Assembly (NCBI GenBank): GCA_008933995.1
Contig: WARS01000052.1
Location: 744,001 to 808,000, forward strand
DNA from: Datnioides undecimradiatus
Lineage: Eukaryota > Chordata > Actinopteri > Lobotiformes > Datnioididae
DNA length: 64,000 bases
Direction: 5' to 3'
Shown here in pieces: positions 4,501 through 50,100 of this stretch. A program made the translations under genes and the position numbers. The notes beneath the pieces were generated by a model. That model was not told where the DNA came from, did not search any database, and saw nothing but the letters and a program-made list of their open reading frames with translations. Position 1 is the stretch's first letter, and the number at the start of each line of letters is the position of its first letter.

Positions 4501-7500
4501 GAACACCATCTCCAGCGGGCCATCTCGGCGCAGCAGGTCTACGGCGAGAAGCGGGACAACATGGTCATCCCGGTCCCCGAGGCAGAGAGCAACATCACCT
4601 ACTACGAATCCCTCTACCCTGGGGACTACAAGATGCCAAAGCAGCTAATTCACATACAGCGTAAGTGGGCCTCTCTAATGGTGAATATGTGGTGCGGAAA
4701 GCAGCGGAGATGAGTCTGATGTGGCAGATTAGGGCCCTCGGTTGTTTCATTAGGGCGTAATAGTGTTTCCCTCAATTATGGCGAACGCATCGAGTGACAC
4801 GTGGGGGCTGTTGATCAAAATTAAGTGGCAATTAGCAGAATATTCCACACAATGCAGCGCTTTTCTGTTTGTAAACATCGCTTTAGAGCTGACTGCGTTT
4901 CATCAGCGACATTATACTCCTGCAGAACTCTCATTACCCGAAGAAAAGGTGACCGGCAACGACATTGTGTGAATACAGGTGCTGCGTGTGGCGGCGGAGC
5001 GGCTTATAGAACACAGAGTCTACCCAGCGGCCGACAAGCTTACGGGCATTAACGGGGCCATTCATCCATTTAATGGCATCAGGCATGTTTGTGTGGAGCC
5101 GTTACCCAGTTGTCATATGTTCCTCAAAGTAAATGAGTCCATGTAGTCGAGCTGCGGTGTCCGCGTCACAAGCGTTTGCCGTGATTGTTTCTCGGAGCGA
5201 AGCAATTTGCTGCAACAGAGACGGCGTTATCAGCTGGAAGCTGAAATGACAATTCCTGGTCGGGGAAATGTAGTGCTTGGTGCTGAAACATCGAGAGAAC
5301 CGTAACAAATATTTGTCCGCCTGGTTTGAGGAGGCGCTTTGTTTTGTTTCACGTTACAGAGCGACAGTTGGTGAAGCTCAAAATCTGCAAATCCAGCAAC
5401 GAAACAGGTCTCAGCGCAATAATGTCGAGGTTTAAAATGGGAAAACTCGCCTAAGCCTCGTGTAACTGCTGCGGTGAGCTCGCCGTCGCAGCCATTCAGC
5501 ACCCGTACGCCCCATCTGTCGCGCCCGGTCGCCTTGATAGCAGCGCGACACGAAAGCGATTTGCTTTAATTAAATCTGAGGCGATCGTTTCAGAGACGAG
5601 GCAGCGCACACTTTGCCCCGTGGCTGCCGGTTTGTCGGTACAGTACGAGCCCGGATGAAGCCAGGGTTAATGAAGTTGTGACACACGTGGCTCCGTTATT
5701 GCTCGGAGTTGCCGCTGACTTCCAGCAACAGGGGAGCGAGAGATGATGGGGTCTGACACGACTGTCTGACCAGCCGCTGAGGGCGGAGGCAGTGTGGAAG
5801 TCTTACAGTGAGTTCATAGCTTTTGAATTCGTCTGTCTCTTGAGGAGGGATGTATAGATGTTTAACGTTTCGGTGTGAGTGTGGTCGCTCTGCAGCGTCT
5901 CTGCAGCTCCCTGCATCAGGACGGAGCTCCAGCTGTAATGTTAATGCAAGTGTATTAGAACCTCAGCCAGCAAAGGGCCAGGAATGTTTCTTACTGACAT
6001 TTTACATTTGTTTCCAGATTACTGAGCTTTATATTGACTTTGCTGCTGGAACCGTTGCCACTGCTGCTCCACAGATATTTAGTCATATTAACATATATAG
6101 TACAGCTCCTAACCCACCAGGACCCATCTGTACCCCCCAGTCAGAAATATGCTGTGCTAAGATTAGACCGATGCATGTTTGGCCTGCAGACGTGCTCAGA
6201 GTGCGTTATTTATCCTTCACACACACGTGAATGCAGATGGTATGAAACTGTTAAACTGCGCAGCCGGATGATTTCAGCCGTCCGGAGGGGGGAACATCAC
6301 GCGCGGTTGTGTTTAGCTGGAGCTGGCCCGGCTGTACTCTCAAAGCGCGTCTTTAGTCCAGTTTCCTGTGGGCCAGTCGTGCTGTGTCTGTGATGTTTTC
6401 CACAGAAGGGAACTGCGGCAGCTCTCTGTCAGTTTCCACGTTCGAGGTCGACATTAAGCTGTTGTCTTGGTTCGTTTGGGACGCTACAGTTTGTAATAGT
6501 GCGACTGATTCCTCTTCGCTGTGTCTGTACTCTTCAAATGTGAGCAGCTCTCCCTTGTTGTGGCTGTGTGTCTGCAGGTTTATACTGTGTGGGTCTTGAT
6601 TGTGCAGTAGCTCAACAGTTCGGTCAGTTAGCAGTCGAGCAGTTCATGATATAATTTGATGCTTGGACGTGGTTTATTTTGTAGCCCAGGACAAATCTCT
6701 TTTCACGCGGCAGCACCGTGTCGCTAAGCTCCCCAGTTATTAGCGCTGTGTGGGTGGCGACCTTGCCCTGGCAGCGGGCGCAGCGCACATCTCTTAGTAA
6801 ACGCTCTGGAGGTGTAGCGTGGCATTGACGGTCATTCTGTCTGTATCAGTATCTGACACAACACCTTCAGTCTGAACTCAGCAGCCTTCAGTTGGTGGAT
6901 GTAACTGACCTGTGAACACATGAAGTGCTTTTTGCGCGCTCCGCTGTGAGTCACAGTTCGCAGAAAGTCTGCTTTTTGCAGTTTCACAGTGATTGTCCCG
7001 CAGTAACGTTGAGTGAGCTTGGCTGGAAAGAGGCTAGAGACGGTTTCTGTAATGCTGCACGCAGCGCCTTCAGTCACCGCCGCACCAGTTAAGCTGAACC
7101 CGCTGCAGAGTCAGAGCAGAGAGGTCAGGTTCGCCCCCTCCCCCGGTCACAGACAGCTGAATGGCCTCGTGCAAGTGTGCAAAACAAGTTCCACACATGA
7201 GCACAGTGGCACCAGATGCTCCTCTGAATGGGGAGAACAAGAGAGGGAAGAGGACCTGAAGGAAATACAGTAATAAAATGTGATTTCAACAGAGAAGAGG
7301 TGTGAACGTCTGTTTCTGTTTCTCCCTGCAGCTTTCAGCTTGGACACAGAGCAGCCCGACTACGACCTGGACTCGGACGACGACATGTTTGTCAACAAGC
7401 TGAAAAAGAAGATGGAGATCAGCTTCCTGCAGTTCGAGGAGATGATCGACCGGCTGGAGAAAGGCAGCGGACAGCAGGTCGGCACCCCAACACGCAGCCA

Positions 7501-10500
7501 GCTGTAACCACAGGCCCATGAAGTACCTAACAGACCAGCATGCAATGAGCTTTTGAAAAACCCGCTTTAAACAGTTTGTAGAACATATTAGAAACAAGGC
7601 AGCCTGAGCAAAGGGAGCCAGCCGTAACAGATTCGGCGCCCGTTGCTGCCGTCGGTGCGTCTCGTTTACCCAGGTGTAACTGTGCTCTGTGTCCCGCAGC
7701 TGGTGAGCCTTCCGGAGGCCAAACTGCTGCTGAAGGAGGACGACGAGCTCATCAAGGAGGTCTTCGACTACTGGAGCCGCAAGAGGAAAAACAGCAAGGC
7801 CAACTCTCTCATCCCCACCGTCAAGCAGGAGAAGCGGGACGGCTCCAGCACCAGTGACCCATACGTGGCCTTCCGGCGGCGCACCGAGAAGATGCAAACC
7901 AGGAAGGTGGGTCCTCTTTACACTGTTCTGAGGGCAGTTTGGATGTGACAGTGTTCTTGTTTCGACCCAGCACAAAGAAACTAAACTGCTCTGTCATACG
8001 TTGATGCAGGAACGATTGAGTCACGCTGGGGGAACTTCCTCCTCGCACTCTTTAATTTCACTGTGTCGCCGTCTTTTGTGAAACTCGGCCACGTCAGCTC
8101 CGTCCGGTTTTTGCCGTATTGTGAACGCCGTGCGTGCCGGATTCCCAGAACCTGTCAGTGACGGGGCCGGAGGAATGAGCAGCATGTTGCTTCGCCGAGA
8201 GAACGCTGCAGCTCACAGAGGCGCGGCAGAATGAGTTAAAGAGCAAAGTGTGCTTATAAATCATCCATTTGTCTGCTCAGCAGCTGGAGCGTTCCTGTGA
8301 GGGGATGTTGGTGCAGTGGATCATTGACTTACGGCTCATTTAGAAAGAGAAAGTCCTCCACTGTGGGAACGAAGCATGTCAGACTTCAGATAAAAGAAAC
8401 TCTTGAATAAAGTGGCCACAGACTCTGAGAAACTCTGCGCCCCTGCAGAACAGAGCTTTATTACTTTCGCAGACTGCAGTGGATTATTAGTTTTATTCAA
8501 CATGTCTCTTAAATTGGTGATACAGTCTGCTGAACTCCGTGCAAACTCCATCAAGCTGTGGTTTCCCTTCAGCTCTTTTAAAGGCCGTATGTGCCACCAA
8601 GTGGTCATGTGAAGAACTCGGCCTGGATGCTGACTCTGGTTCTTCAGCAGCCTGTTTGCTTTCATCCCAACAGAAATCAGTGCAGCTGCAAAGTTTAGTT
8701 TGGTCATTTCTTGCCAGGTTTCTAATAAATTAGAGTTTTACCGTGTAAAGTTGAAACTGAGGTTATCGTCTAATCAGAGATTATTTGTTCTATACGTTGC
8801 TTCACGCCGCGTGCTTCCTTCCTCCAACCCTCAGAACCGTAAGAACGACGAGGCGTCCTATGAGAAGATGCTGAAGCTGCGCAGGGATCTGAGCCGAGCC
8901 GTCACCATCCTGGAAATGATCAAGAGGAGGGAGAAGAGCAAGAGGGAGCTGCTGCATCTCACACTGGAGATCTTTGAGAAGAGGTGAGCCCGGCGGCAGA
9001 CAGCAGGGGGATGATGGGAGATCACCTGTGGGGCACTGCGCTGTAAGTTTGGTTCTTCTCTGTCGCAGGAACGCCATGTCAGACTTCGGTGGCGAGGTGA
9101 TGGCGGAGGTGCTGGCTGAGCGGGCGCTGGTGAGGCCGCAGATCATTCCCCTGGTGCCCCTCACCAACCAGTACCGACACCAGGACCACATGGACCTCAA
9201 GGACTACAAGTCCAAGGTGAAGCTCACAGGATCCTCACAGTGAACTGGATTATTTGTACAAATTGTGACACGTTTGCCTCGACAGATCTGAGAACAGCTG
9301 CAGTTTCTCACGAGCTTCAGTCTCACGAGTTTGCTCTCCTTTCCCGCTTTAGCCCGAGAAGACGGAAGTTCCCCGGCAGAAGAGGAAATACGAGAAGAAG
9401 CAGAAGTTGCTGCCTCTCTCGTCGGGCGCCCCCCACCATCCGGGTCCTGTCGTCTTCAACGCCAAGGACCTCAACCAGTACGACTTCCCCAGCTCGGACG
9501 ACGAGCCCTTCTCCCAGGTACGCACCGTGCCGATGGAGCACAGTGGCTCGTTTTGCTTTGCTCGTTCGTCAGTCGGCTGCAGGTGGTCCTTTCTCCACGT
9601 GTCTGTTAGTCTGAGGCAGATCAGATGGTGATGAGTGAAATAAAACTTTTAAAAAGGGATTTAGTCTCCACGTGGAGCTCCACCTCTGCCCTTTTCCTGA
9701 TAAATTCCCTCCCAATTGCGAAACCACTTGAGCCGAGCGGCTGTGAAATGCATTTAAGCTGGAACCTTCAGGTTTTCGGCCTTTAGAACTCCTGCTGCTG
9801 CCTCCGTGACCTCGGGCTGACCTCTGACCTCTGCGTCCACAGCTGCACTCAGGCTCTTCAGAAGCAGAGGAGGAGAACGACCCAGATGGTGCCTACGCCT
9901 TTCGCAGGAAGGCGGGCTGCCAGTACTACGCTGTAAGTACCGCGACGGCATATTAAAGCTTCACTTTGGGCGGCGTAACGTCCCGGCGGGGCTGCCCCGA
10001 GGTTAGAGGTGCTTTTAAATGCAATTATCCGCGTTGAGTTGTTGTATTATAACACACGGTGAAAGGTTTTAGGTGGTTTTCATGGCATTTGGATGTAACA
10101 TGGAGTTGGCTGGATAAAGTTTTACAGTTTTTAGTTCATTTATGTTTTCTACCACGTCACGATGAAGACGGCAGATTGCTTTGTGTTTGTGTATCGATGC
10201 TGTCGACACCTCTACTCCACCGTCGCCTGAGAGTGTTACCTCGTGTCAGTAAACGCTAGACGATGGCAAAGCCTCGGGTGACGTTCAGCTCCCTGTCTGC
10301 TCTCAGGCTCGTCAGGACCGCGTGGGCAGCTGGCCGTGGTGTGGACCCTGGGACGACGGTTTGGCAGAAGCTCGCTTTCGCTACAGTCTCACGACGCTCA
10401 CGGTGCCGCGGCGTTGCCTCGGCATGGCTCGACGACGCGTGGGCCGAGGCGGCAGGTTCGTTGAAATTCAGATTTCCTGATTGGCGCCGGTTGATTTCTC

Positions 10501-13500
10501 TGTTTACGGCACCAGGTGTTATCTAAGCCGTTTGTCTGAGACCTGACCTCTTCTCTCCCCCCGCAGGGTGTTGCTGGACAGGGCGCACACGGACTACGAC
10601 AACATTTTCCACGGACTGGATCCAGAGATGCTCGACCTGCCTCTTCCCCCCTCTCCCCCTCCTCCTCCACCGACTCCTCCTACAACTACTTCACGCTCGC
10701 CGGCCGCCAACAAGTTCGCCAGTACCTCAGAAACAAATACCTCAGACAGAAGCTCCTCCTCCCACCACACCTCTCTGTCCTCCCCCTCTTCCACGGACCT
10801 CAGTCAGATACTGTTGAATATAAAGTCGTGCCGATGGAGGCACTTCAGACCACGGACACTACCACTACACGAGCTGGACAATGCCCACCCATTATTCAGG
10901 AAGCTGAGTCGAGGCCTGAAGCGGCCGGGCTCCGCCTCCACAGCTCGGGGACAGCCCTTCGGCTCCCAGCGCCCGGCGAGGGTTGTCCCCGCGCCCCCAC
11001 CCTTTGCTGGTGAGTTGATCGGTTCAGACACACGCAGCAACACGTGTCTTCTGCCTGTGAGCTTCATTCATCAGCCTCAGTGATTTTAGTTTTAGTAACC
11101 TGGCCCTCACTTCAGAGAGGCGACTTCTACTGTTTGAGCAGCAGAATGAGCGGCTGACTCCTTCCTCGTTGACACATTTCACTTTGTGGTTTCATTCTGC
11201 TGCGTCATGATACCGTGACATCAGAGCCGGATGCACAGTGCTGATTGTACGCTTTGACACTGAAGACAGAAGCCAGACGTCAGCAGGTGTTGGTGGGCTG
11301 TTGTGCAGCGTGAAGGGGCTTCACTCGCCCGTGAGAACAATCAGGATTCACATTGATCCCCAGCTCTTTAGTACCCAGATCGTGGCGATGACGGTTCCTT
11401 AGTCTGCAGTGTTTGATGACAGAACCGGCGCCCGTCCCGTCCTCCAGCTGCCTCCTTTACCTTTTGTTGTTCGTCAGGTGCAGCTGTTGCTTGGCATTCT
11501 GTCTGCGTCACCTCCCACCCCACCCAGTCCACGAGGTGTCAATTAAGACCCGGTTTGATAAACAGATTCATGAGATGCACAGGATTTGTCAGGGTGTGTT
11601 CACACAGTGGAGCGGCGCGCTGAATGCAAACGAAGCGCCACAGGCCCCCGGTGGTATTACTGCGAGGGCAGTGAGCCGCTGGGTGTCTTGATGTTGTTAC
11701 AAGCACTTTACAGGAGCTGAGCATGTTTCTTGATTTGCATGAAAAACAACTGCCTATTGATTTTAATCCAAACAAAACAACCACTGCCACAAAGAAACGG
11801 GAGGAGATATAATGAACGCGCCGTCATTGTCGTGATGCGCAGATGTTTGACGAGAGCAGCCGTAAGAGGTGGGTTGTAATTAATAGGTGCAGTGTTTTGA
11901 TTAAATCAGACAGCGTCAGATTGAACGAGGCGGGCCTGACAGGTGTTCCAGATGGAGGCGGCGCCGGAGTACGAGCCGTGACTTTGAAATGAGGAGTCCT
12001 GGGTCACGTGAGGTGGAGAACTGAAAGGCAGCAAGGAAATCAATGTTGCGCCGAGGCACGAGGCCACGTAGTACCTTGAAATGTGGGGATGGGACCTGAT
12101 GATCAACAGAAAGCCAGTAAAGAAAGATTGAGGCTCTGTTGTTCATGGGACTGATGCAGGGATGCAGATAAGACCCACGGGCGAACTGAAACATGCACAC
12201 AAGAAACCACATTTCAGAATTAGCTTACCTGTGTTGACGCGCAGCTCCTAACGTAACACCGGTGGGTGAGCGATGGCGTCGCAGGAACAGACAGAACACA
12301 CTTCCTTTTCATTTCCAGGCCGCAGGTTTGACGACGACGCTGCTGCTGCGTTCGTCTAGTAGACGGATCGTTTGTTAGCAGGTGCGCAGCAACGCCTCCG
12401 GCCTGATGCTGAGGCGGCAGTTTGAGCCACAGCAGATTCCCCCGGCAACTGATGTCTGAGAGGCTGGTTGTGTTGTCTTCTGTTTCCATGGCAACCGCCT
12501 TATCAGTGAGAGCAGCGCTGGGATGGTTGATGAGGGTGCCGCTGCATTACTGCGTGGATTACAACCAAAACTCTGACAGTGCTGCAGAGGGAAGCAGGGC
12601 CATGTGACGTGGTCTCACAGGATATCATCATCAATTCAAATGTCCTCGTGTGTCCTCGCCGATGTGATTTGGGTGTGAAGTTGAGTTTCAAATGGAGCTG
12701 ATGCCTCTGGGCTGCAGCCGGTGTGACCAGTCTGAGCAATAAGAGCCAGCACTAGCCACGCTGCGTTCAAGGGCCACCTCGAATCACACAACCGCAGCGT
12801 GCAGCGTGATTGGTCTGTCTGGCTCAGCGCTCACACATTTTGTTTGGTGGAGGTGGGATTGTCTGTGTCTTCTCCTTGGTTGTGGGTTTGGTATCTAAAG
12901 CAGTATTGTAACCGTGCAGGTGGCACCATGAATCTGTTTCCAGATGAGTAACCCGCTCCCGTCTCTCTCAGCTTTCACAGCCGAACAGTACCAGCAGCAT
13001 CAGGAGCAGCTGGCCCTGATGCAGAAACAGCAGCTGGAGCAGGTCCAGCAGCAACAGCAAGCCAACAGCACCGCCACTGCAAACAGCACACACGTGAGTG
13101 TCCCACCGCCGCCGCCGCCGCCGCCGCCGCCTCTGGTGCTCTGACGCAGACCGGACGTGGCTTTGATCAGTTCTTTCAGTTTTTCGTGATCGTGTCAGTG
13201 ACTTAGTCGTTTTCGTCTCCCCCCAGCAGGGCCTGGCGAATACTTTGGACCAGGCCAGCGCCCAGTTCGCCGCCTCGGCTCTCATCTCCGCCGACCAACT
13301 GCTGGCTCTTAAAACCAAGGAGGAGCTGGCCCTGGGAGGCGGAGTCAATGGCGTCCTCTCCCCCTCAGGTATGACGGCCGCTCCAAGCGTCCACCAGCTC
13401 AGGCAGTGGAGTAATTAACGAAGACAGCTTTGGAAAACGCTTCGCAGTTATAAACAAAGCGACTTGTTGTCGTTGAGCGCGACCCTGAGCGTAAAGACAA

Positions 13501-28571: not shown

Positions 28572-31500
28572 TCAGATCCGATTGGACATCATCCTGGTGT
28601 TCAGTTTCATAAAGAACGACTGCAGCTTGCACAGCCGGCACTTCTTCTTCTTCTTCTTCTTCTTGCTGTTCCGGCCTCTCTTGTACACGCCGTGATATTT
28701 CCCCTCCTCGTCCTCCTCCTCGTCCACCCACGGCACCCAGGCCCCGCCGTGCTGGCTGGGGTTGGCCCGAGGGTCGTCTGGCGGAAAGTACACCTGCACG
28801 GCCGTTTGGTTGTAGTAGGCGAGCCGTGCCAGCAGCCGTTGGACCACGTCTGGTCGCTGGTCCGCCAGGTCCCGGCGCTCGCACGGGTCGGCCGTGATGT
28901 TGAACAGCCAGACGTTTTTGTGGGTTGAGGTTTTCTGGAACGACGTGACGGCACGTTCAAGGTTCCACCAGGGACCCGGGAGAGTTGGAAGAACCTGAGG
29001 GTCAAAGGTCGCAGTTATTTGTGTTTCTCATGATCAATCTGAGACAGAGGAGTAAACACGATCCAACTCAAAGGTCTAAATGTGTTGCAGTACCTGCGGG
29101 GGGACCCAGTCTCCATGGCCTGGGTCTCCTGTCAGCAGCTTCCAGTCTCCAACTCTGATGGCAGCCTGGACTGATGTGTCCCACACTGGCTGGGACGACT
29201 GCAGACTCAGCTGGGGGGCCGGCTGGGGTTTCAGCTGCTGTGTCGCTGGCCGGGACATGTTCTGGTACTGGGATAATGTCCGTGTGGGGTCTGACCTTAA
29301 AAGTAATTTTAGCTGCATCTTGGATTTTGGTTGAGGTGGTCTGGACAGTGACGGGTTCTGGTTTTGGGATGTGGTGCGCCTGGATTTTGACTTGAAGCGC
29401 AGCTGGATCTGAGGCTGAGCTTGAGGGCGGGATGTTCCTGACGCTGACGGGGAGCCGCCGGAGTGAGACTTCAGGTGTGGTCTGTAATGCGACCGTCTCT
29501 GCTTCTGAGTGAAGACGTTCGCCTTGAGTTTGGGTTTTAGTTTTGATTTTGGGAGGGTCTTAAGCTTGGGTTTGGGAAGGGGCCTGGATTTAGGTTTAGG
29601 CTTAGACTTCTTGGTCGTCTTCAGCTTGAACTCTGACTTCTGCTTCGTTTGATGCCTCAGGATCTTCTTCTTGTTTGGCTTCTTAAAGGGCGGACGCAGG
29701 TCGTCTGAGTTGCTGATTGCTTACAAAGAAAGTTTAACAGGTGAGAGAGAGGTGACGTAAGCTCTGCAGGTATTTAGTCACAGAGCAAAGTATTGGAGAA
29801 GCGTTACTGGAGAGGAAGGACGATGTTAGCGTGGCTAAAACCAGAATTCACTACAAAATATAAGAACCTGCTGTTGAATGACAAGGGTTTCCACTGAAAA
29901 TGCACATATTTACATAACATTTATCACCATTCATAGAAGTTTAGTGAACAACTAGCCAACTAACTAATGTAACTGTTGATCTCTCTCTTGATTTCGGGGG
30001 CTACCTGAGGCTTCCTCCGCGTCGTCTTCCCACGTCACGATTCGACCAGCGGGTTTGTGCAGGGGGTCGATGTTGTGCAGGATCTCCTGACGAGGCGAGT
30101 CCTTCCCTTCGCTGATGGTGGGCCAAACATCAAACCCATCCAGACCCCGGCTCTGAGAGGGAAACATTACAGCGTGTGTGAGCAGGTACTGGGAGTCCGT
30201 GATCACTGTTTAGCATTCATGTTGCTGGAAGAAACACTCATTACCTCACAGGAGTAAATAATAATACAATAGTGGCTATCGAGTGTCTGGATTAGTCAGA
30301 TTTGTCTTGACTAGAGCCAGGATAGCGTTTCTTATCTGCTTTGCAATGGAAACCTACTTGAATACCAAGCCAACAAAGCTCTTTGGTGCACAGACCTGCC
30401 AGTGAAGTGAATTTACATCTGAAGTTAAAGACAAAAAGGTCTCTGAGGCCGGTGCTGAGAACTGCTGCACTTATCCTGATCGGTCAGGAGCACATTTATC
30501 GGCATGATGGTGAACGACGGTTTTATGGTAGCGCTGAAACTGAACTTTAGCCTGGTGCCAAAAGGGATTCATGTAGCCGGAGCTGCACATTCAGCTCGAA
30601 CCGTGACAACAAATAAACTTGCGCATTAATGAAATCATTGGGAGACACTGAGCGGGTCGAGTTACAGCAGAGGAAACTGTAGCCGAGTCCAGTTTCTGGC
30701 ACAACATGTAGAAAAAACATACAGAAGCTAAATCCAGCGTGCTCCGACAGTGAAGTGATCGCCCGTATCTGTAGCTCGGGTGGCCGCGGTGAAAGCCACA
30801 GCCCTAAATCTGCACAATAAAACAGTCACCAGTCCACTTTTTTATGGTACTGAACCTTTTCTGTCCCGCGTTCACCGAGGCTGCAAAGATATGAGCAGCA
30901 AGCAACATGCAACCAATCGCAAAAGAGTTTAAAAGCAATGCAGCGACAATCGTTCTCTATATGTTGGTGTTCTAAGAAGGTTCTGAGCTCCTCTGACCTG
31001 GCTGATGTTCCCCCCGGCCAGGCTCACCAGCGTGGGGAACCAGTCGGTGATGTGCAGCAGAGCTTTGGAGACCCGTCTCCGTTTTCTCAACAGCGGGCTG
31101 TGAACGAACGCCACTCCACGGACTCCGCCCTCCCAGTATGTACCCTGGAAGCACAGTCGGGAAGCTTATTTAGGATTATCACGATTCTTAAGAAAGCAGT
31201 GTGTGGACGCAGGATGTGCTGCAGGGGAGAGCTGCTGCTAACGTTTGCTCAGCTTGTTTCTCTGATAACTTCAGATCCAGACGTCCGACGACTCACAGAC
31301 AGGAGACCGAACAAGGCTGATTACAGACCAGCGAAACAGTGATCAGAGTCGTTTCTACCTTGCGGCCTCGTAGCGGCCAGTTGCTCCCTCCTGTGAAAGG
31401 CTGGGCGCCGTTGTCCGTGGAGTAGATGATGACGCTGTTCCGGTAGTATCCGTACTTCCTCAGGGCGTAGGTGACGTTTCGGACCGCCTCGTCCACTGTG

Positions 31501-34098
31501 GACACCATGGCGGCGAACTTTCTCCTGGCGACGTTGGCCATGTCACGGTATGGGTAGATGTAGGACTTAGGAGTCTGTAGAGGAGTGTGAACCGCCTGCA
31601 GGGGAACATTAACGCATTAACGCCGTGTGTTCGGACATTTCAAAGATACACGGGCGGCTTTTTAGAGTAAATACACAAAGGTGTTCTCTGATTTCGCTGA
31701 GTTAACGCCCCTCAGCACCTACTCGTAGGGCACACGCCTACCATGGGAAAGCCAAATGAAACGGCCCTTTGGTTTTGTTTTTCCATTCCCAGTGGGTGCA
31801 GCAGCTCAGTCTTCACCAAGCCCTCAGCTCAGAGCGCGTCAGATGAACGTGGCTGCCCACAAACGTTAAACAATAAACAGTCAGTGAACAACAGTCGAGT
31901 AACCTCGAACATAAACTTTCTGTGTGGCCTGTTTTTAATCAAATCCTCTGAAATAAGTCGCCGATGCTCTTAGACAAACAAACACTTTCATGCGGCCTCA
32001 GTGTTGTTCCAACATGTCAGGGTCCTCACATCCAGACATAAACCAACGCAGCATCAGAACACGCGGCCGCCTGGGTCTGACCTATTTTCGGCGACTGTAC
32101 GACAGTTTTGCGCCTGTGTGTTTGGCTCTGATTGTGAGAGAAACATGAATCATGTTTCAAACCCGCCACCAAGCCTCAAACTGAGCCTCGCACCTGGAGG
32201 GAGAGCAGCAGGAAGAGCGGCTTGTCCGTGGGGTCGTGGCTCTCGAGGATCTTGCGAGCTCTCTGCGTGAAGAGCGTGGTCGAGTACTTCCCTTCCTGGC
32301 CCCACGCAACGCCCTCGTCGTCATGGAGATCATACCCACACAGCCCCGGGCCATCGCAGGACCCATAACTGGAAACAGATGGAGAAATGTAAGTTACAAA
32401 CACACAAGGAATTAAAGTTATTCAAGGTTAATTCGGGCTTCACCTGTAGTAATCCACACTTCCTGTTAACGAACCAAAGAAACTGTCAAAACCCTTTCTG
32501 GTGGGCAGACACGCCTTCCTGGAGAAGACAAAGATCAGACTTCAGATCAGATACTGCTACGCACATCCATCCTGATACCTGCGACGTCTCCACCTCACCT
32601 GTAGAAGCCCAGGTGCCACTTGCCGACCATGTGCGTGGTGTAGCCGGCCTGGCGGAGCCTCTCGGGCAGAGTGTCCATGTGTGCGGGCAGACAGCTGGGC
32701 TGGCTGGGTCTGATAATGGAGTGCTGCAGTCCCGTGTGGATCTGATATCTGCAGGTAAAAACACGCTCACCGCTGACTCAGGATCTGCTGTTGGGCCTCG
32801 CAGAACAACAAGGGGCTCATTTGTCTTCAGTGCAGTAATCTGATTATTCACAGCAGCTGCCAGAGCCTCCGAATCAGTGACTGTCCTGCTTTTACATCAG
32901 ATGTATTAAACTATATGCCATAAACTGAAAGCGAAGAGGCGTCTGTACCTGCCCGTCATGAGCTGGCTGCGTGACGGCGTGCAGATGGGCTGAACGTAGT
33001 AGTTCTCCAGCCTCACGCCCTCAGCCGCCAGTTTGTCCAGAGTCGGAGTCTTGATGGTCGGGTTGTGGTAACCGATGTCGTTGAAACCCTGTTTTCATGG
33101 AGGCACAGAAGAGCTCTGCTGAGTGTTTCAGATTTAGATAATCGGATCCATCTGTGCTGTGACAAAACTCACTGAAAACACAGATTGATGGTTTAACAGC
33201 GCGCTCTCCTCATGTGAAACTTGTCTCCCAGATGGTCTGAACAAAGGTTACACACACTCTGTGTGTGCGCAGGAGCTGTTTCCAGCTTCAGTATAGAATC
33301 AGAAAACACGTACAATGAATTTATCTTGTGAACGGTGTGTGTGTGTTTGTGTTTACACCCCGACCGCCACCTGGACCATCTGTCTTTTCAGATGACTGAT
33401 GGAGGTTTAGTTGCAGGAGGTGGATTTAATCGGGTTCAGGTGCGCGGCCGCGTGAGAGAGACGTGCCCGCTTTGATCATAAACCAGTGTCTTTGTGCCCT
33501 TTTATGGAACGTTTGAGAGCAACAACAACCAAAGTGCACAGAGTGAACTGGTCACTTTACTGGAAACACCATCAGCACTAAACCTGGCAGGCAACAGCTT
33601 CTAACACCCGCAGACAGTCCATTATCGGCCGACTGATGGACATTTGAAGGTTTACTGAGCTGATCTTTTAATCAGTTTGTTCAGAGCTGTGACTGACTTA
33701 TCTCTCAGGCTTATAATCTATATTATACCTGCAGACAATGACCGATGTTTAAGTCTATCTGGTCTTATCTGTTCATAAAAGTGAAATATGGATGGTGCTA
33801 CAGTACCGAGCGCTCACAAATGTGTAAATATGCATGAAATCATCTTTTCTTATGTAAACATGGTCATTTATTAAACTGTATTGAATGGCTCTTACACACA
33901 CACACACACACACACCTGGTCGTCTGTGAGGATGAACAGGATGTGCGGCTGGCTCTTCCTCTTCACTCTCGCCTCATCATCGTTAGTGCTTCTGTCGTCC
34001 CGGTCCTGTGTCTGGTTTGGTTTGGACCGCTGCGCAGCCGCACAGTCCAGGGCAAAGAAAACACTGAGCGCAGTCAGAGCCGCAGCGGCAGCCTGCAT
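28572..34098 (-). CDS. arsi: Arylsulfatase I (ARSI), ten coding exons, with large basic insertion
   Basis: A secretory-pathway sulfatase that hydrolyses sulfate esters; the natural substrate of ARSI is unclear to me. Exons in transcript order: 34098-33916, 33088-32949, 32748-32599, 32518-32444, 32368-32194, 31595-31359, 31144-30998, 30152-30005, 29719-29094, 28994-28572; phases agree (2304 nt, about 767 residues). The Met at 34098 opens a hydrophobic signal peptide (about residues 1-22). Metal ligands DDQ are at 59-61. The sulfatase signature [11 protein letters not shown] begins at Cys97, the residue converted to formylglycine. [15 protein letters not shown] and NWPLRGRK follow. [21 protein letters not shown] and the Cys/Lys-rich C-terminus ending [11 protein letters not shown] point to ARSI rather than ARSJ or ARSB. 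Adjacency to tcof1 supports this. Human ARSI is about 569 residues; most of the excess is a Lys/Pro/Gln-rich block at about 420-595. An in-frame upstream Met at 34248 is less likely because a good acceptor ends at 34115. Confidence 0.93.
29094..29719 (-). other. arsi: arsi exon 9: basic low-complexity insertion
   Basis: A 626-nt exon entered through a TTTGTAAG acceptor in the phase required by the previous exon (TCA G / CA). It stays open for 208 codons. The first about 175 residues are very rich in Lys, Pro, Gln and Ser (for example [38 protein letters not shown]). The last about 31 residues return to the conserved sulfatase sequence ([30 protein letters not shown]). In human ARSI the flanking conserved blocks are separated by only a short linker. 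Confidence 0.8.
32949..33088 (-). other. arsi: arsi exon 2: sulfatase active-site signature
   Basis: Encodes about residues 62-108, from [15 protein letters not shown] to [11 protein letters not shown]. The C-x-P-S-R-x3-L-x2-G pattern is the formylglycine-forming motif of type I sulfatases and is fully intact here, so the enzyme should be matured by the formylglycine-generating enzyme. The exon starts after aaaacag and ends at a gtacag donor, phase 2. Confidence 0.93.
33895..33915 (-). repeat. (GT)n at the arsi exon 1 donor
   Basis: The conserved coding sequence ends ...LTDDQ and the very next bases on the minus strand are a run of about ten GT units, so the homology-defined donor is CAG followed by gtgtgt. 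A stronger-looking GTAAGA lies 20 nt further at the repeat's end. Confidence 0.8.
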
Positions 34099-39896: not shown

Positions 39897-41947
39897 ATGG
39901 CCCCGGAGGAGGACGACGCTCTGCTGTTCTTGATCTACCAGCACCTGAAGGTGCGCGGCTACAAAAAAGCTGCCAAGGTGCTGGAGAAACACGTAACTCA
40001 GGTAAGAAGTTTGGGCTGAATCCGCAGCGTTTACAGCCCGATTCACCGCAGAGCTGCCCGGCTGGCTCCTGCCTCGCTGTTTTTATGCCTGTTTTCATCA
40101 TATTTATGATTTTCCTCTGTATTTCATGCGCCAACCTGCGCGTCATGCACGTTATATAAGAACCTGAATAATATATAAATGTGTTTTCAGTGCTTTATAT
40201 CTTTTATGCATCAGTGCTGGTGTGGTTGAGCTGCAGGTCACCCCCCCCGTGTGTGTGTTTGAGCACATGGCTCCTTGTTCAGGCCTCCTGGAGGAAAAGA
40301 ACATAATGTTACAGCAGCTGCATGGCCGTAAAAACAGCCCTGCTGCAGGCCTGCTGCTGCTGCACACGCACCCCGTTCAAAACCCCCTTACATTTTTGCA
40401 GCGTTTAGTGATAAAAGTTGTTGGTTTTGATCTAAATGACCCGCAGCTGCAGTGTTTCCGTGACTAATCGATTTTTTGAATGGCAGAAGACAAATCGGCA
40501 GCTTTTAGATCAGATTTAAAGCGGAAATTAAGGCTGTTCAAGGCCCTCAAATTGAAAAAAATCTGCCATAAATCTGCATTTTTAGTCCAAGATTTCAGTT
40601 TTTGGGCAGTTTGTTGGAGACGGTTCACTGTTTTCTGTTGTTTTATGGACTGAATAAGTAACTGATGAATCAAAAACATCATTGCTAGACTTTAGAGGCG
40701 ATAACTATTGTTAGTTTCAGCCCTAACGAGTCCATATTGATTATGCAAAGTCATGCTGCAACCAGACACACTCAGACAGAGTAAACCAAGGCTACACACT
40801 GCTCAGTTGATGCCTTATTTAATTTTATTCATGATATTCCATTAGTTTGAATTAAAACCTAATTAAAATGTGATGTGTCCGGTGAGCTTTCAGCTGTCCT
40901 GTGTGTTACTTCCTGCCGTCTGTGGGGAAACTTGAGCTTCGGTCAGTTTCAGGCTCTTGTGCTAAAAATATCAGTTTTTAAAGTTGCTGACAGACTTTTG
41001 TGGCCGCCACAACAAAGAAAAATGTCCTCAACAGACGCTTTTACTATCGTGAGCATCTCTTCCCGGCCAGACTTTGAATCCAGGGTCTCAGGGTCCGTGG
41101 TCGTGTGTTTGTCCCACCGCATGGATTCATTTCCGGGAGCGCGTGGCATTGAAGTGGAAGCTTTCCTGATCCACAGGAAATTTGCTCTTTCACTTTGAAC
41201 ATTTCTATCCCCGGCATCATAGCTGGGCCTCAGGAATATCGTCCAGCCGCTTGAATGTAGATGAATATAGATGTGACATTCAGGGCGTCAGTGACAAATG
41301 TGGCTGTGTTTTAATGTATCTGTGTGTGTGTGTGTGTGTGTGTGTTCTGTGAAGGTGGAGGCGCCAGAGGAGAGCTCCAACCTGCATGACATCTACACAG
41401 GCTGGATGAAGTAAGTCTGACGTGTCGCACAGCGCAGAAAGTCTCCACCTTCCTATTCAAACACGCCTTTTAGCCGTAGACGTAAAATGAAATCGAATAA
41501 AATAAATCCACATCAGTGATAATTTCATTTATCCAAACACTTGACATGTGGATATTCTGCCAGGGCATCGTCTCGGTGTCAAAGAAACACATCGTCGTGT
41601 GTGGTTTCCTCCGTATGTGCCTGTCCTAACATTACACAGCAGTAACACGTGAGATGAACTGTGGGACACTTCTCTCCACGCTCAGTCTGCACGCTGACGG
41701 TGGCCAGTAACTGTTGTCTGCTGTGGCGTCAGACTGAGCATGCTCCAACGTGAACAAGCTGCATTATTACTGTTATTATTCTTATTATTATGATGTAATA
41801 AAGATCCATCAGTCTCGATGATGCTCGAGCGTCTCACGTGTTGTAAACTTTTGACTTTTCATGGGTTTTTATTTCAATTCAACCATCATCAGACTCCAAA
41901 CTGTCTCTCTGAGCAGGAAGCTCCTGATAGTGTGTGTGTGTGTGTGT

Positions 41948-41985
<38 letters not shown>

Positions 41986-43740
41986 GAACTGCTGTCTGGC
42001 TTACTGCCCGGTGCATTCTGGGATTGACTTCAAATCCCTGCCACCCTGAAAAGGATTAAATGGGCAGCAGATAGAGGATGGAACGAGTGACCTCAGCTCA
42101 CGTCTGCGATTTCCCTTCTGCCAGGTTTTACGCTGAAACGATGCAAATCGGCCGCGATGAGCGATTGTTTTATAAAGACGGTGAAAACGTCATCGAAACA
42201 CAAAAATCCCACGTTTCTGCTTTTCGAGCTGAGCGAATCCCTCCCTCTGCTCTGCTCGCCGGTCACGTACGAACTCATTCCCCCCTCAGGCTGATTTTCT
42301 CTGGTCTCTAACACTCGTCAGACTCTCATCGTGACACTCGCACGCAGCTGTACGTCTGGGCCGTGGGACAGATGACGGATTGGTCGGCGTCTGCAGTGAG
42401 CTGAGGCTCCTGGGTCCCATCGCAGCACTGCAACCTGTTCATCACAGTGTAGTACAAAAAACACACTTAAATCCTTTGTTCCAACAGGAAGTGACACAAA
42501 CTGTATTTTAGTTTCGTTTTCCAGGATCTTGTTTGGGTCATTTTACCACCATGGCTCCATCCGTGAACCGCTCCTCAGTTTCCTGTGTGCATTGCATTCT
42601 GGGAGATCAGTGTCAGTCAGGACAGGACGTTCTCTGCACGCTGTCTGCTTCGAATTCAACTTATTGTTGCAGGACAGTTCGTGATGTTCCTGAACGCAGC
42701 GCGGGCCACGGCACGGCAGAGGAGGGGGCGTGCTGCGTTCAGGAACATCAGGCTCAGCCCTAAAACAATGTGGCTGCTGGGTGAAGGCAAATCTCGACAT
42801 CAGGAGACAACAGGCTGTGAAAGGACCCGATTACTTGTTTTTATGTTTAAGTTCCAGCTGCACGAAATCGAAATCATAGGTGTTTGCACGATCAGCGAGA
42901 AATATCATAAGCACGTGTGTGTGTGTGTGTGTGTGTGTTGCAGGCTGTGCTCTCTTGCTCAACATGCCAAGCAGGAAACGGAGGAAGACTCCTTGAAGAA
43001 GAAGAGCATCAAACCAGAACCAGCCACCAGCGAAGAAGAAGAAGAAGAAGAGGGCGTTGACTCCAAACTCCCCGACGCCACGGAGGAAAACGACGTGGAC
43101 GTTAAACCTGCGCTTGGTAGCTTTTCATCGCTTTCATCGCTTACGTTTGGACCTTTCTGAAGAACCTTTGCAGAATTTCACGTCACTTTATTTTAGTTTT
43201 TAACCCTTTTTCTCAGTTTACACCTCAAACGTGTGTTTCTTGCCCCCTGCCTCAGAGCCGACGACAGACGGCGAGCCGGCCTCGGAGCGGCTGCCGCATC
43301 TCGAGGGCGAGACCGCGAGGACGAAGTCAGACGGTGAGAGCCCCGACTCCTCTGACAGCGACGAAGAAGAAGAAGAAGAAGACGTAAAGAAAGAGGAAGA
43401 AACAAACACAGAGCACGAGGTGAGGGGAGAAGACCACGGTCGGTCGCATTAGGAGCTCTGGGAGAACCCGTAGCTGCTGCCTCATTGTTCGCATGAACCC
43501 CGGGAGATCAATTATCAAACCCCTCAGACTGGAGCATTCCTAACTGTGTGTATTTGATACATTGTAGCAGGATTATATGCATATTTACACGCTCGCCGCC
43601 TGCACAGTGGTTTTCAGCGTTTAGGTATCTGCTTCAGTGGGTTCGCCTGTCGGTCTGGAGAACACGTTTCTACTGACGTCTCTTTGGTGAATTTACATGA
43701 AGAGTAGCTCGGCTTTATTACCCCCACCCCCACCGTCTCT

Positions 43741-43771
<31 letters not shown>

Positions 43772-43899
43772 CTGTTGCCCAGTCACTGTAATAATGTGCT
43801 AGTAGATGGACAGTAGCTCCGGTGTTATTATGTCCCCCTGAAATACACACAGACACATTTCATGTCTGCCGCCCGTCCTGTATCTGTTAGTTCATTTCG

Positions 43900-43932
<33 letters not shown>

Positions 43933-44051
43933 CTGGAGCGAGCGAGTATCCAAGTCTTGTCTCTGTTCTTTTCTGTTGGCCCAGTGATGCAGCAGATAAT
44001 GCTGTTTGGACAGAAACTGTGTGTGTAACAGAATGATAATCATCAGAGACA

Positions 44052-44105
<54 letters not shown>

Positions 44106-47100
44106 ATGGCTCTCTGTGGCTGATCACTTGGCTGTGTGTCGGTCCACAGAGGACCTGCGGTGTTTCTCCGGCTGCTCCCTGAGCGCTGAGACGCGCTCGT
44201 GTTTAACAGAACAAAGATGTTTCTGCCGAGCTGAATTAAAGACAGACAATTGTTTTTTCCTTCTCAGCCCTTTTGTTCTCCAGCTGCAGCTGCTCCAATT
44301 AGAGGAGGACGAGAGCAGTACAATCTGTCAGACATCTTTGACTTCGCTCCACTTCGCCGCTGCCCAAAAACTATTAGAAACACACCGACGAGCCGCACGG
44401 TTGCACCAGCGGCCGCGAGCATGCGCCGCGCCCGCTGCAGGAAACACGGCCGCTAAACCGTTTTTTCATCCTCATCAGGGTTTTCTCCGTAAACCCAGGC
44501 GGCAGGAAGCGGTGAAAGCCGTGCTCAGACGTCTTGAACCTGACCGACTCTAACCTGCCTCTGCCTGTTTTCCAGCCCGCTCCTGCTGAAGCGTCCCCTG
44601 AGGCGCCTGACGAGGCAGAAGGCTGCAGCTCAGACTCGGAGGCAGCGGCCGAGCCCGCCCGGGTCGACCCCAGACGAGACGATCAGCCCGAGGATCAGGC
44701 CAGCGAGGAGCGCAAAGGGGGCGACGATGAGCCGGAGCAGGTCAGTGACCCGGGGCTGGATCTAAAGTACGTGTCAGATGCTTCCTCCAGTGTTGCCAAG
44801 ATTTTGGTTTCTTGATCAGCTGTGGCAGGTTTCACTGAGGTCCACCTGCCCGTTGGAGGAGTTTAACCTCCTGATCACGCGTCTCTCTGCTCCCTCTGCC
44901 CTCGAACGGGAGCGGATACCTGTCAACTGTTGCTTCGCTCGTCAGCAGGCTTGTCTGTAACACCCTCCCCGTGTATCCCCACAGAAACCTTAACGCTCTT
45001 TAACCACAGGCTCATAAAAAGCAGGAGCACTGATTGGCTCCTGGCACGGTCGGGCCTCCATTGCCTCCGCTCACCCTCCGCACATCTGAAACTTATTTTG
45101 CAGGGGATCGTGGCTGAGGTGCGTTGATTGCGCTGCTCAGCTTCCAGGAGGAAACAAAACCGGCAGCTCTCCTCCGCTGAGTCGGGAGGTTCTGAGGAGT
45201 CCTGTAGCCGGAGATGTGGGGTGAAATGTCACGGCGGTTATTGTTACATCAGCGTCAGAGTCCAGCTGTGGACTTTGGCAGAGCAGAAGCTTCTCAGAGA
45301 GACACGACCGAGCATAAATACGGTTGGATGGCTGCCTGGAGGTTCTGTCTTTCTTTAAGCTTTAATTTCATTTTGGAGAAGAAGAAGAAGAAGAAGAATG
45401 ATCAAATCCAGCAAGCGTGGAGGGACGGGAGCGACGATGAAGGAGCTCAGCGTTTTCAGCGCCATCACGAGGAACCGTGACGCCTCAGTACGGCGCAGGA
45501 GAGCAGTGGTGGACACATCCCTGCAGCTGGGTCTCCGGGTCGTAGCGCACGATGCTTTGCTTCGACCCAGACGTGCAAGAGCAGCACGAGGTGTTTCCTC
45601 TCGTGTGACCTCTTTGACGCAGCCGGTGTCACCATAGCTGATGGAACCCTAACAGTGTCTTCTCTCTGTCCACAGCAGGCAGGCGAGCCCACAGACGCCC
45701 CTGCTTCTGATCAGACGGCCGAGCCTTCCACAGCTCAGGAGCCAGAGGAGGAGGAAGTGAAGGTGAGAGCTCATGTCGCGCCTCGTTTCCCAGCTCACGA
45801 TCACGTTTTTTTAAAATCAGAATTCGAAAAACCTGCAACAAACAAGCAAAACTGAGATAAACAACAGAACAGTAAGGACAAACATCGCCCGAGGTGAAAC
45901 TCCTCACGTCTGCCGCGTCGCGCTGCTGCTGACCTGTTGATTCCTCTCGCAGACGCTCAGCCAGGTCGAGCCCGCCGCGTCTGACCCGACGGCTCAGGAG
46001 ACCAATGAGCAGCCGGCAGAGAGCGAATCCCCGCCCCCACCAGGTAGGACCAACCAATGGGCGTCTGACAAACAGGTTGTTCTTTACATGTTATGTATGG
46101 CATCCTTCCTGTCTCTTTCTCACGGCGCCGACAAGACTCGCAAGCTGTTGTGAAGGAGCCGCTCAGAGGCTCCGAGGCGGCTGCTCGTCCTTTCGCAGCC
46201 TCTGCAGCTTCCACTGCAGCTTTAACGCGTCTTCCCCCCCCCGCGACTCCGCTTGAGTCTCACTTTGGAGTCTGCTGTCCTCAAACCCAGCGAGTCGAGC
46301 AGGCAGGGAGCAACGGTTGCAGACGAGATGCTGCAAGTGGTCACGCCTTGACCTGTATCCCCGGGTCCTGATCGCGTTCGTGACGTAGCTCTGCAGTGAC
46401 CCACGGCGGTTCTAGCTGGCAGCTGCTGCATGCTCGTTACCGTTACCGAGCTGCAGGAACTCAAACCTTCTCGATGGCCCCTCCATTTGTTTTTCAGACC
46501 TCAGCTCTGACTTCAGTACGCTGGAGGTGAACAGATTTTGATTGAAGCTAAGATTCTGTCCAGAAACTGTCATAGCTTCTCTCCAAAGCGGAAGAACTCG
46601 CTGCAAACATGTCAGAATCATCATTATTATGAAGAAACATCATTTCTTCTTCTCTTTATTTTTTATTTTAACGTAATGTGCACGCACGGATCTTGAAATG
46701 CAGTTTCAAAAGTGCCGTGTCCCACAGACGCGCCGCGGTGTTTCATTTCACTCCGGACATATTTTCCTGTTTTTATTCGGGAGCAAAAGAAAAATGCTGC
46801 GCTCAGCCTCACTGGCAGCTCCTCGCCTCTCGCTGTTTTAAACGCAGGACTTTTTGGAACGTTTCGCTCAACATTTTTCGAAAAGAAAGAGACGTGGAGT
46901 TGAAGGTTTTACCTGGAGGAGCTCGGGACTCGACGCCAGAGCTTGTAAAGAGTTTGAGGGCTGGTTGCCAGAGCTCAGAGAAACGACTGCGGCAGCTCTG
47001 CTCAGACGAGTTTTCCACAACATCAGTTACACGTTGAACTCCTCAAAGAGGGTTTGTTGAGCTTGTCAGAGCTTGTTTAGCAAACTGGAGCGATGAGTAG

Positions 47101-50100
47101 TCTGACAATCACAGTACACTTCATGACTTTGGTGCAGAGTGAAGGGACGTTTGACTTCGCAGACGCTTTTGACTCGTCAGACTCAGCATCTAGCGACGGC
47201 AGTGCGTTGCAGCCATCTCTCCACCTGTGGCTGTCGGGTTTGCAGGATTCATACACAGAGATAAAACAGCACATAAAGCCGAACAGACGCCGGCTGCATC
47301 TGAAACATCAGAGCTTTTAGTGCAAAGGTTCTGGCTCAGCGTTTTATTGGCCATTTCTTCAGCGTGACATCATTTGCTGGATCTGAAGATCGTAACCTGT
47401 CCAGACATTCATGTTTCCCTCATGATGCGTCGCCGTCACCTTGCCGATCCTCTGCCTTCTCATGTCAGCGCACAGAAAAGCTATTGTTCCTGGACTTTGG
47501 TGACCAGACACCTGCAAAACCAATGCAGCAATGTTAGCATGCTGCTGTTAGCATCCAGCTCAAAGCACTGCTGAACCTCCCCCTGCGCGGCCAGACGACA
47601 TATGCTTTTTATAAGCTTTTAGCTCGTCTTCCAGCTGCCGTTGCACGAAGTATGCAGACAACTGGGACGTGCAGCGGTGTCGTAACAACTCGAGCTTTGA
47701 TGCGTTGTTTCTGCAGTTTTCTCAGGGCAAAGCTGATGAAGTTTAAAAAAGTGAAAATGCTGCAGGAAGACGTGCTTGCACATGATGTATTGGCTCTTAT
47801 TAAATGTCCCTCTGGTGCACCGTGTACTGTAAAGTGTGCTGGTATTTAAACACAGTATTTGCATGGAGTCTGATGCAGAACATGTCGATAAACTTGGTTT
47901 TTGTAGCTCTTGCCTCCAGACTTGTTACTGTGCTTTGCTGCGCCGATGAAGAGCATCTACAGGTTATAGTTAGTGTTTAATGGCGACGGTGTTTCCTTTG
48001 TTTTCAGACCCCGACTCTGAAAATCACAAGGAGGAAGAGGAGGAGGAGGAGAAACCTGAGGTACCCTGACAGGTTTTATTAACAGAGAGCAGCGTCAGAC
48101 TGGAAACACGTGCAATATGTTTGTGTTTGTGTTCACTCAGAGCGTGGAGGGCGGCGACCTCGCTCCCCCGCTGAAGCCCGAGGACCAAACAAAGACGGCT
48201 GCAGAGGACGGAGGCTCTGCTGATCTGCCCGCCGCCGACACCGGTGACTCAGGTGTGAGCTTCTAGTGCACAGTGCTTTAATAAAAAACAACCTTTTAAC
48301 AGGCTTCTTTTGTTTGCACTGTGAATGTGTTTTTCTGTTTTGCTGCAGAGAGCGGAACTGCTGCGGCGGCGGCGGCGGCTGCAGAAGAGCGAGACGACCC
48401 AGAGGTCTCCATCATCCTCAACGTCCAGGTCGAAGACGAAGACGCAGCCGAGCGAGAAACCTGCCAGCCGCTCCCAGAGGAGGCGGCCGAGACCTGCGGG
48501 GACGCCAGAACTCCCAAGAAGAAGAAGAAGAAGAACAGGAAGGACGCAGACACGCCGGCTGCAGACACGCCGAGCACAGACGCGTCCACCGTCGATACAG
48601 CCAGCGATACTCCTCCTTCCACCAAGACCGCCAGGAAGAAAAAGAAAGATAGAAAGAGAGCGGAGGAGGAGGAGCAGCAGGAGGTGGTGGAGGAGCAGGG
48701 AGTGGTGGAGGAGCAGCAGGAGGTGGTGGAGGAGCAGCAGGAGGTGGTGGAGGAGCAGCAGGAAGTGGAGGCCATGACTCAGGCCACTTCACCAGAGAAG
48801 AAGAAGGCGAAGAAAAGGAAGAGGGAGCGAGATGACGGTGACGATGGGATGGAAACTCCTTTGGAGACCAAAAAGCCCCAGATCGGAGGTGTGGAAGAGG
48901 AGCGGAGCGAAGCAGCAGAGGTGGAGGAGGAGACGAAGGTGGAGGGTCCGGCCGAGGAGAAGAAGAAGAAGAAGAAGAAGAAGAGGAGGAAAAAAGAGGG
49001 CGGACATGAGAAGGAGGAGGCGCAGTCTGTTGAGACTCCAGCAGGGGGCGACGAACACACAGAGACGAGGCTGGAGGCCGCAGGTTGGGACTTCTCTCTA
49101 ACCGTCAGCGTTACAATCTTCAGCGCTGTTTTCAGAGTTCACACGTTTTTCCCGTTTCCCAAACTCCTTTTCAGACGCAAACTCGTCCCAGCTCTCCTCG
49201 GCGAAGAAGAAGAAACGCCTGAGGAAGAAGCTCAGCCTGAAGAAGAGGCTGCGGCTCCAGAGGAAAGAGGAGAAGAAGAAGAAGGGGAAGAAGAAGAAGA
49301 GCGGCGCCGCGTCGGAGCCGGCGGCTGCAGAGAGCAAGGCGGGCAAAAAGAAGTGAGTGCAGCTCAAGTTGTTTTTGTGCTCATGCATTATGTGACTGTC
49401 ACATGATGATAAATACTACGTGTTCGGTCAAAGTGAAGTATTAAATGAACAGAAATCAGTGTTTTCACAATAACAAGTGAACGTTTCTCAGACAAAGACA
49501 GAGCGAGGAGGCAGCAGAGGAGGCGCCTCGACCGAAGCCAGCCAAAAGACCTCAGCCTGATCCGGAGGAGGACCACCACACACCAAAGAAGAAGAAGAAG
49601 CCGAACGCAGAACAGGAGGAGAGTTCCTCCAAGGAGAACCAGCCGCCAAAGACGCAGAAAGCAAAGAAGAAGAAGAAGAAACTGGTGGAGGAGGAGGAGG
49701 AGGGGGAGGAAGGAGGCGTGGCGGGCGAACGCGACGCCGACTCGTCTCCACTTTCAGAGGACGTCGGGAAGAAGAAGAGAAAGAAGAAGACGAAAGCCGG
49801 AAAGGGAGGGGAGACGACAGAGAGCTCAGCACCCATCGCCGCGAGCCCGGCGAAGAAGAAGAGTAAGAGACTCTCTGAGCGTTGGTGTTCGTCTGTCGTT
49901 GCTTCGTGTGTCTGATGTGTGACGTTTTGCGCCGCCTGTTTGCAGAGAAGAACAGACTAAAGGAGAAGCTGGCGGAGAGCGAAGCCGCCGCCGCCGCCGC
50001 CGAACGCGCTCCTGCACCTGCGTCTACGGTGAGAAGCACAGCTGAACTGGTCACATGATCAAACGTCTGTTACGCTGAGCCAGGCAGCAGTAAGACTTCC

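Follow-up and report, generated by a model that had tools for sequence, protein, structure and literature searches.

The arylsulfatase gene and its exon structure

The stretch of DNA analysed here (the window) comprises 64,000 nucleotides of Datnioides undecimradiatus (assembly GCA_008933995.1, contig WARS01000052.1, 744,001 to 808,000). On its minus strand, at 34098..28572, lies an arylsulfatase gene that we model, with exon borders set by hand, as 10 exons joined in a single open frame of 767 codons; 9/9 junctions are GT-AG. An apparent neighbour gene, placed head to head at 39933-50030 (+), has a LisH-like start (LIYQHLKVRGYKKAAKVLEKH) and many Lys-/Glu-rich exons, and we take it to resemble treacle (tcof1), the neighbour of human ARSI.

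All exons of the sulfatase gene are on the minus strand. Exon 1 (33916..34098) supplies the presumed start codon and a hydrophobic N-terminus judged by eye to be a signal peptide; exon 2 (32949..33088) contains C-x-P-S-R, which we take to be the formylglycine motif of sulfatases; exons 3 (32599..32748), 4 (32444..32518), 5 (32194..32368), 6 (31359..31595) and 7 (30998..31144) follow, the open reading frame that contains exon 6 matching the Pfam family Sulfatase at 1.6e-7; and exon 8 (30005..30152) ends in a loop segment, WEDDAEEAS. Beyond intron 8 (29720..30004; 285 nt if the insert described below is included) comes exon 9 (29094..29719; 626 nt), which consists of the insert codons (29187..29717) followed by a conserved block. 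Exon 10 (28572..28994) encodes the C-terminal domain, a basic tail and the stop, with a weak match to Sulfatase_C under the cut-off. The insert, 177 codons rich in Lys, Ser, Pro and Gln and built of degenerate 6-nt (2-residue) repeats, thus comes directly after WEDDAEEAS and separates HNIDP from the next conserved block of the predicted sulfatase.

The encoded protein aligns along its length with the solved structure of arylsulfatase B (ARSB, 1fsu; E 2.7e-162) and has the S1 sulfatase core of the ARSB/ARSI/ARSJ group. The alignment falls into two blocks, query residues 50-400 and 590-717, between which 189 residues of the window gene (query 401-589) face 18 in ARSB (chain 358-375).

Relatives of the gene and the origin of its introns

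The genome of the same fish (581 Mb, 497 contigs) was searched with the exon-9 protein, scoring only the best candidates; among these were the protein itself and three sulfatase matches, all three lying in residues 170-211 (of 214) and hence nearly confined to the conserved part. Spliced by hand, the three genes yield an arsi-like protein of 570 residues from two exons (L005), a protein of 574 residues from three exons (L006) and an arsj-like protein of 465 residues from the second exon on (L007), the fetched stretch having revealed no first exon for it; the names arsi and arsj are presumptive, resting on sequence resemblance and the tree described below. L006, at about 4724-7000, is a third gene of the ARSI/ARSJ type, with an extra intron of its own inside the sulfatase core. 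The insert is absent from all three arsi/arsj-type paralogs found in this genome, and the loop at the insert site varies in length among them (~16 residues in L005).

Without the insert, the window protein is 68% identical to L005 (387/568) and 55-56% identical to L006, L007 and ARSB. In a tree of these five sequences, L007 and ARSB fall on one side and the window gene, L005 and L006 on the other (95/97); among the latter three, L006 may be as near to the window gene as L005 is. The window gene and L005 share a phase-2 intron after TGR and the same C-terminal MSNRI, and the window gene differs in having eight further introns and a basic insert of 177 residues. The sequence-only reading had named the gene arsi; its place on the arsi rather than the arsj side of the tree upholds this in part, but it is not simply arsi, as a two-exon arsi-like gene 68% identical to it exists in the same genome. 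Because that nearest relative has two exons and the window gene eight introns more, the latter looks like a divergent arsi duplicate with gained introns. The gene might instead be a decaying duplicate, or the stretch an assembly error, and the insert would then have no product; it is indeed a duplicate with a divergent loop, on a branch longer than that of the arsi paralog (0.25 versus 0.16). The intact 767-codon frame, the intact splice sites and the fact that the core aligns with ARSB both before and after the insert argue against such decay or error, which we regard as hardly credible.

Human ARSI is described in PMC2650720 as having two exons, in contrast to the ten of the window gene. All nine exon ends that precede introns in the window gene are CAG or AAG, and its largest intron measures 845 nt. 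Eight of its introns are absent from L005; the same eight are absent from L006, which has one of its own; and the seven for which L007 allows a check are missing there too. When mapped by hand onto ARSB, at least 8/9 intron positions of the window gene miss the human ARSB introns as generally placed, four of which occur as variant names in papers; intron 8 lies in the unalignable loop and has the same phase as one ARSB intron, with which it could coincide. Since the paralogs are without these introns and the positions miss those of ARSB, the simplest reading would be that eight introns were gained in this copy; repeated mass loss of introns may be the alternative among the five sequences compared. 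The gained introns do not appear to be copies of each other, as matches between different introns of the gene, at E up to 1, do not exceed 20 nt.

A similar case is slc26a1, which according to PMC12357937 has 2 exons in human but 7 in most Eurypterygii; it is likewise a vertebrate gene with few introns that acquired several in fish. The present case differs in that the introns are in one of two arsi-type copies and adjoin a large coding insert. The presence in one genome of arsi-type copies with 2 and with 10 exons would make this a clean case for the study of intron gain in vertebrates.

Composition and repeat structure of the insert

An in-frame basic insert of about 175 residues, rich in Lys, Pro and Gln, had been claimed from the sequence alone, and is borne out: the 177 codons encode K30 S25 P24 Q20 L19 R14 T11 among others, with 44 K+R against 4 D+E and a net charge of +40. 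In the protein, Lys, Arg and Gln alternate with other residues at a period of two, giving positive autocorrelation at lags 2, 4, 6, 8 and 10 and negative autocorrelation at odd lags; in the DNA, autocorrelation peaks at 6 nt (z 6.8) and 12 nt (z 5.0). With its default threshold, Tandem Repeats Finder calls no array in the insert, which makes the repeat a degenerate and probably old one. Third codon positions of the clearest run, a Lys/Pro array of 15 hexamers, are off the mode in 16/30 cases, first and second positions in 13/60 (Fisher 0.004, indicative only, as the segment was picked after inspection); this fits an in-frame repeat of which the residues would have been kept while silent positions drifted.

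The source of the insert was sought in several directions. A dispersed repeat or transposon is rejected as tested, since the insert DNA has a single match, itself, in the 581-Mb genome (in a search that passes over simple repeats and very frequent words). Capture of an exon from another gene is also rejected: among the best candidates scored in the genome, the exon-9 protein finds, besides itself, the three sulfatase matches essentially in its conserved part, and comparison of the insert with the remaining window gave no match. Phage records did not match the insert DNA, and candidate relatives picked by pattern from viral contigs (109) and from genome contigs (252) all failed in tblastn. RNA structure is also rejected as an explanation, the folding energy of the insert RNA being ordinary (z -0.35; 8/20 shuffles as good). 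At E up to 10 the exon-9 protein has no match in Pfam, so that comparison names no binding domain.

These properties bear on whether the insert could be a neutral expansion of low complexity, translated but doing little, and tolerated because the surface loop is variable in any case. Its repeat structure, its lack of a counterpart in the three paralogs and of a Pfam family, and the varying loop lengths of the paralogs are all consistent with neutrality, whereas the 44 basic but only 4 acidic residues in 177 positions, and the greater divergence of third positions in the Lys/Pro array, which hints that residues were kept, are not readily so explained. A neutral expansion is a realistic possibility, albeit a doubtful one.

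Coding potential of the insert

The openness of the frame had been estimated, for 208 codons under equal codon use, to occur by chance only 5 times in 100,000. That figure was overstated, because it ignored base composition (T makes up only 14.7% of the insert DNA): the frame of the 177-codon insert stays open in about 1.2% of dinucleotide shuffles (1.16% and 1.32% in two runs of 20,000 each), and any of the three frames stays open across it in 3.8%. A second frame, 29068-29559, is open for 163 codons and overlaps the 3' part of the insert. With about 1% of shuffles open and this second frame open as well, the open frame alone is weak evidence of coding.

Base composition by codon position, the excess of GC at position 3, is stronger evidence. 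The GC contents of the insert at positions 1 to 3 are 0.475/0.463/0.655, in the same direction as those of the rest of the gene (0.577/0.453/0.769), and GC is highest at position 3 in 5/5 sub-segments of the insert; the introns of the gene, read in an arbitrary frame, are flat (0.465/0.458/0.439). The excess of GC3 over GC1 and GC2 in the insert is 0.186, which is matched in frame by 2/20,000 shuffles, in any frame by 3/20,000, and together with an open frame by none. Among 2293 overlapping windows of 531 bases taken from both strands outside the gene, 25 have an open frame; 7/25 of these have a GC3 excess at least as great as that of the insert, and all seven lie in 48351-49181, a coding-like part of the Lys-rich neighbouring reading frame.

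A test of synonymous codon usage gives the insert 0.099 bits per codon in frame, compared with -0.224 and -0.376 in the other sense frames; the scores of the nine other exons lie between -0.223 and 0.276, 2/9 falling below zero, so the power of this test is low. Read in antisense frame 0, the insert does as well as in the sense frame (18.9 against 17.5 bits), which we take to be a mirror effect because that antisense frame has 13 stops.

Splicing of the insert

The phase of the exon-9 acceptor had been said to fit, and the model agrees: the acceptor at 29719 is compatible with the phase-1 donor at 30005. By a simple acceptor matrix built on general background values, the acceptor at 29719 scores 0.9 and the other eight acceptors of the model -1.4 to 9.1; it ends in AAG, the other eight in CAG. 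It is the highest-scoring of the in-phase acceptors from there to the end of the exon. The best-scoring AG of the region, at 29806 (4.9), is in phase and leads, by eye, to a stop within ~10 codons.

The sequence-only reading had held that transcripts skipping the segment through an internal splice site would count against the insert. A candidate for such a site does exist, at 29184..29189, and it is weak: an exon start at 29185 would be in phase and would drop the insert exactly, leaving a loop like those of the paralogs in an enzyme of 589 residues, but the acceptor at 29185 scores -1.9, below all nine model acceptors (minimum -1.4), and an out-of-phase AG 4 nt upstream, at 29189, scores -1.6. 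The segment could then be intronic, in an intron from 30004 to 29186 of a standard ARSI of 589 residues. In keeping with this, 29185 preserves the phase and a paralog-like loop, further introns of the gene, of up to 845 nt, have no counterpart in the arsi paralog, and the open frame by itself is only a 1% event; against it stand the low score of 29185, with a better out-of-phase AG nearby, and the coding-like GC3 of the insert, which the introns do not share. We consider an intronic segment unlikely. Inclusion of the insert is the better model, and skipping by way of 29185 is possible.

Both forms might also be made, with 3' splice sites 534 nt apart toggling the basic loop and so producing soluble and matrix-bound isoforms. 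Both acceptors keep the frame (534 nt being 178 codons) and leave the flanking blocks intact, but the downstream acceptor is weak, and production of both forms seems quite improbable. For inclusion of the insert in the mRNA and its translation, the balance of codon structure and splice sites is favourable, and we think both probable.

Possible function of the insert

We propose, tentatively, that the gene, a diverged copy of arsi, encodes a secreted sulfatase of the ARSI type in which the insert is translated as a long, disordered and strongly basic loop where the large catalytic domain meets the small C-terminal one; that this loop probably arose in situ, as 6-nt (Lys/Gln-x) repeats next to a gained intron expanded in frame and diverged; and that it would serve as an electrostatic tether, holding the enzyme on sulfated glycosaminoglycans in the manner of the Sulf1/2 hydrophilic domain. 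Having 44 basic but only 4 acidic residues, the insert should be disordered and should bind polyanions, and the fold should tolerate it because its flanks are conserved and the length of the loop varies in the paralogs. Secretion of the insert-bearing enzyme is likewise presumed. Provided that the insert is translated, its binding of polyanions has an even chance or slightly less; the chain as a whole, binding included, is somewhat less probable than that. Against binding, two relaxed heparin-motif patterns have only one match each in the insert.

As described in PMC3890690, the hydrophilic domain of Sulf1/2 links the catalytic domain to the C-terminal region, has many basic residues, and is dispensable for small substrates, being needed for heparan sulfate and for location at the cell surface. 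In both Sulf1/2 and the window gene a long basic stretch separates the catalytic from the C-terminal part, and both enzymes are extracellular, the window enzyme presumably so. They differ in that the core of the window enzyme belongs to the ARSB/ARSI group; the insert is also shorter (177 residues versus ~320 in the Sulf domain) and has nearly no acidic residues, compared with the 13% indicated for the Sulf domain. The Pfam comparison of the exon-9 protein, at E up to 10, gave no sign of homology to the Sulf hydrophilic domain. The insert may function like that domain without being classed as one.

A stronger version of the proposal, in which a duplicate of an ARSB-type exosulfatase independently evolved a Sulf-like polymer-binding domain, possibly switched by in-frame acceptors, and became matrix-bound, is decidedly unlikely. 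If the insert is translated, the window gene would represent the second sulfatase, after Sulf1/2, with a long basic and probably disordered segment between its catalytic and C-terminal parts, and comparison of insert-bearing with insert-free enzyme would directly test whether such a segment suffices as a matrix tether. PMC2650720 cites an earlier report in which no activity of human ARSI or ARSJ was detected in HeLa cells, and states that the physiological substrate of ARSI was still to be determined in 2009. Among the titles and abstract openings listed from open-licence literature, none reports this insert, and arsi or arsj do not occur in the searched passages of a paper on zebrafish sulfatases (PMC13199485).

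Other features of the window

Ten neighbouring reading frames, the LisH-like frame not among them, gave no Pfam match above the cut-off. Exons at 7277-11080 (+) resemble enhancer-of-polycomb (EPC1/2) by eye, the frames tried from them having no Pfam match above the cut-off. In the Lys/Glu-rich frame of the treacle-like neighbour, a tandem array whose unit is 18 or 21 nt long (GGAGGAGCAGCAGGAGGTGGT) occupies 48662-48771 (+).
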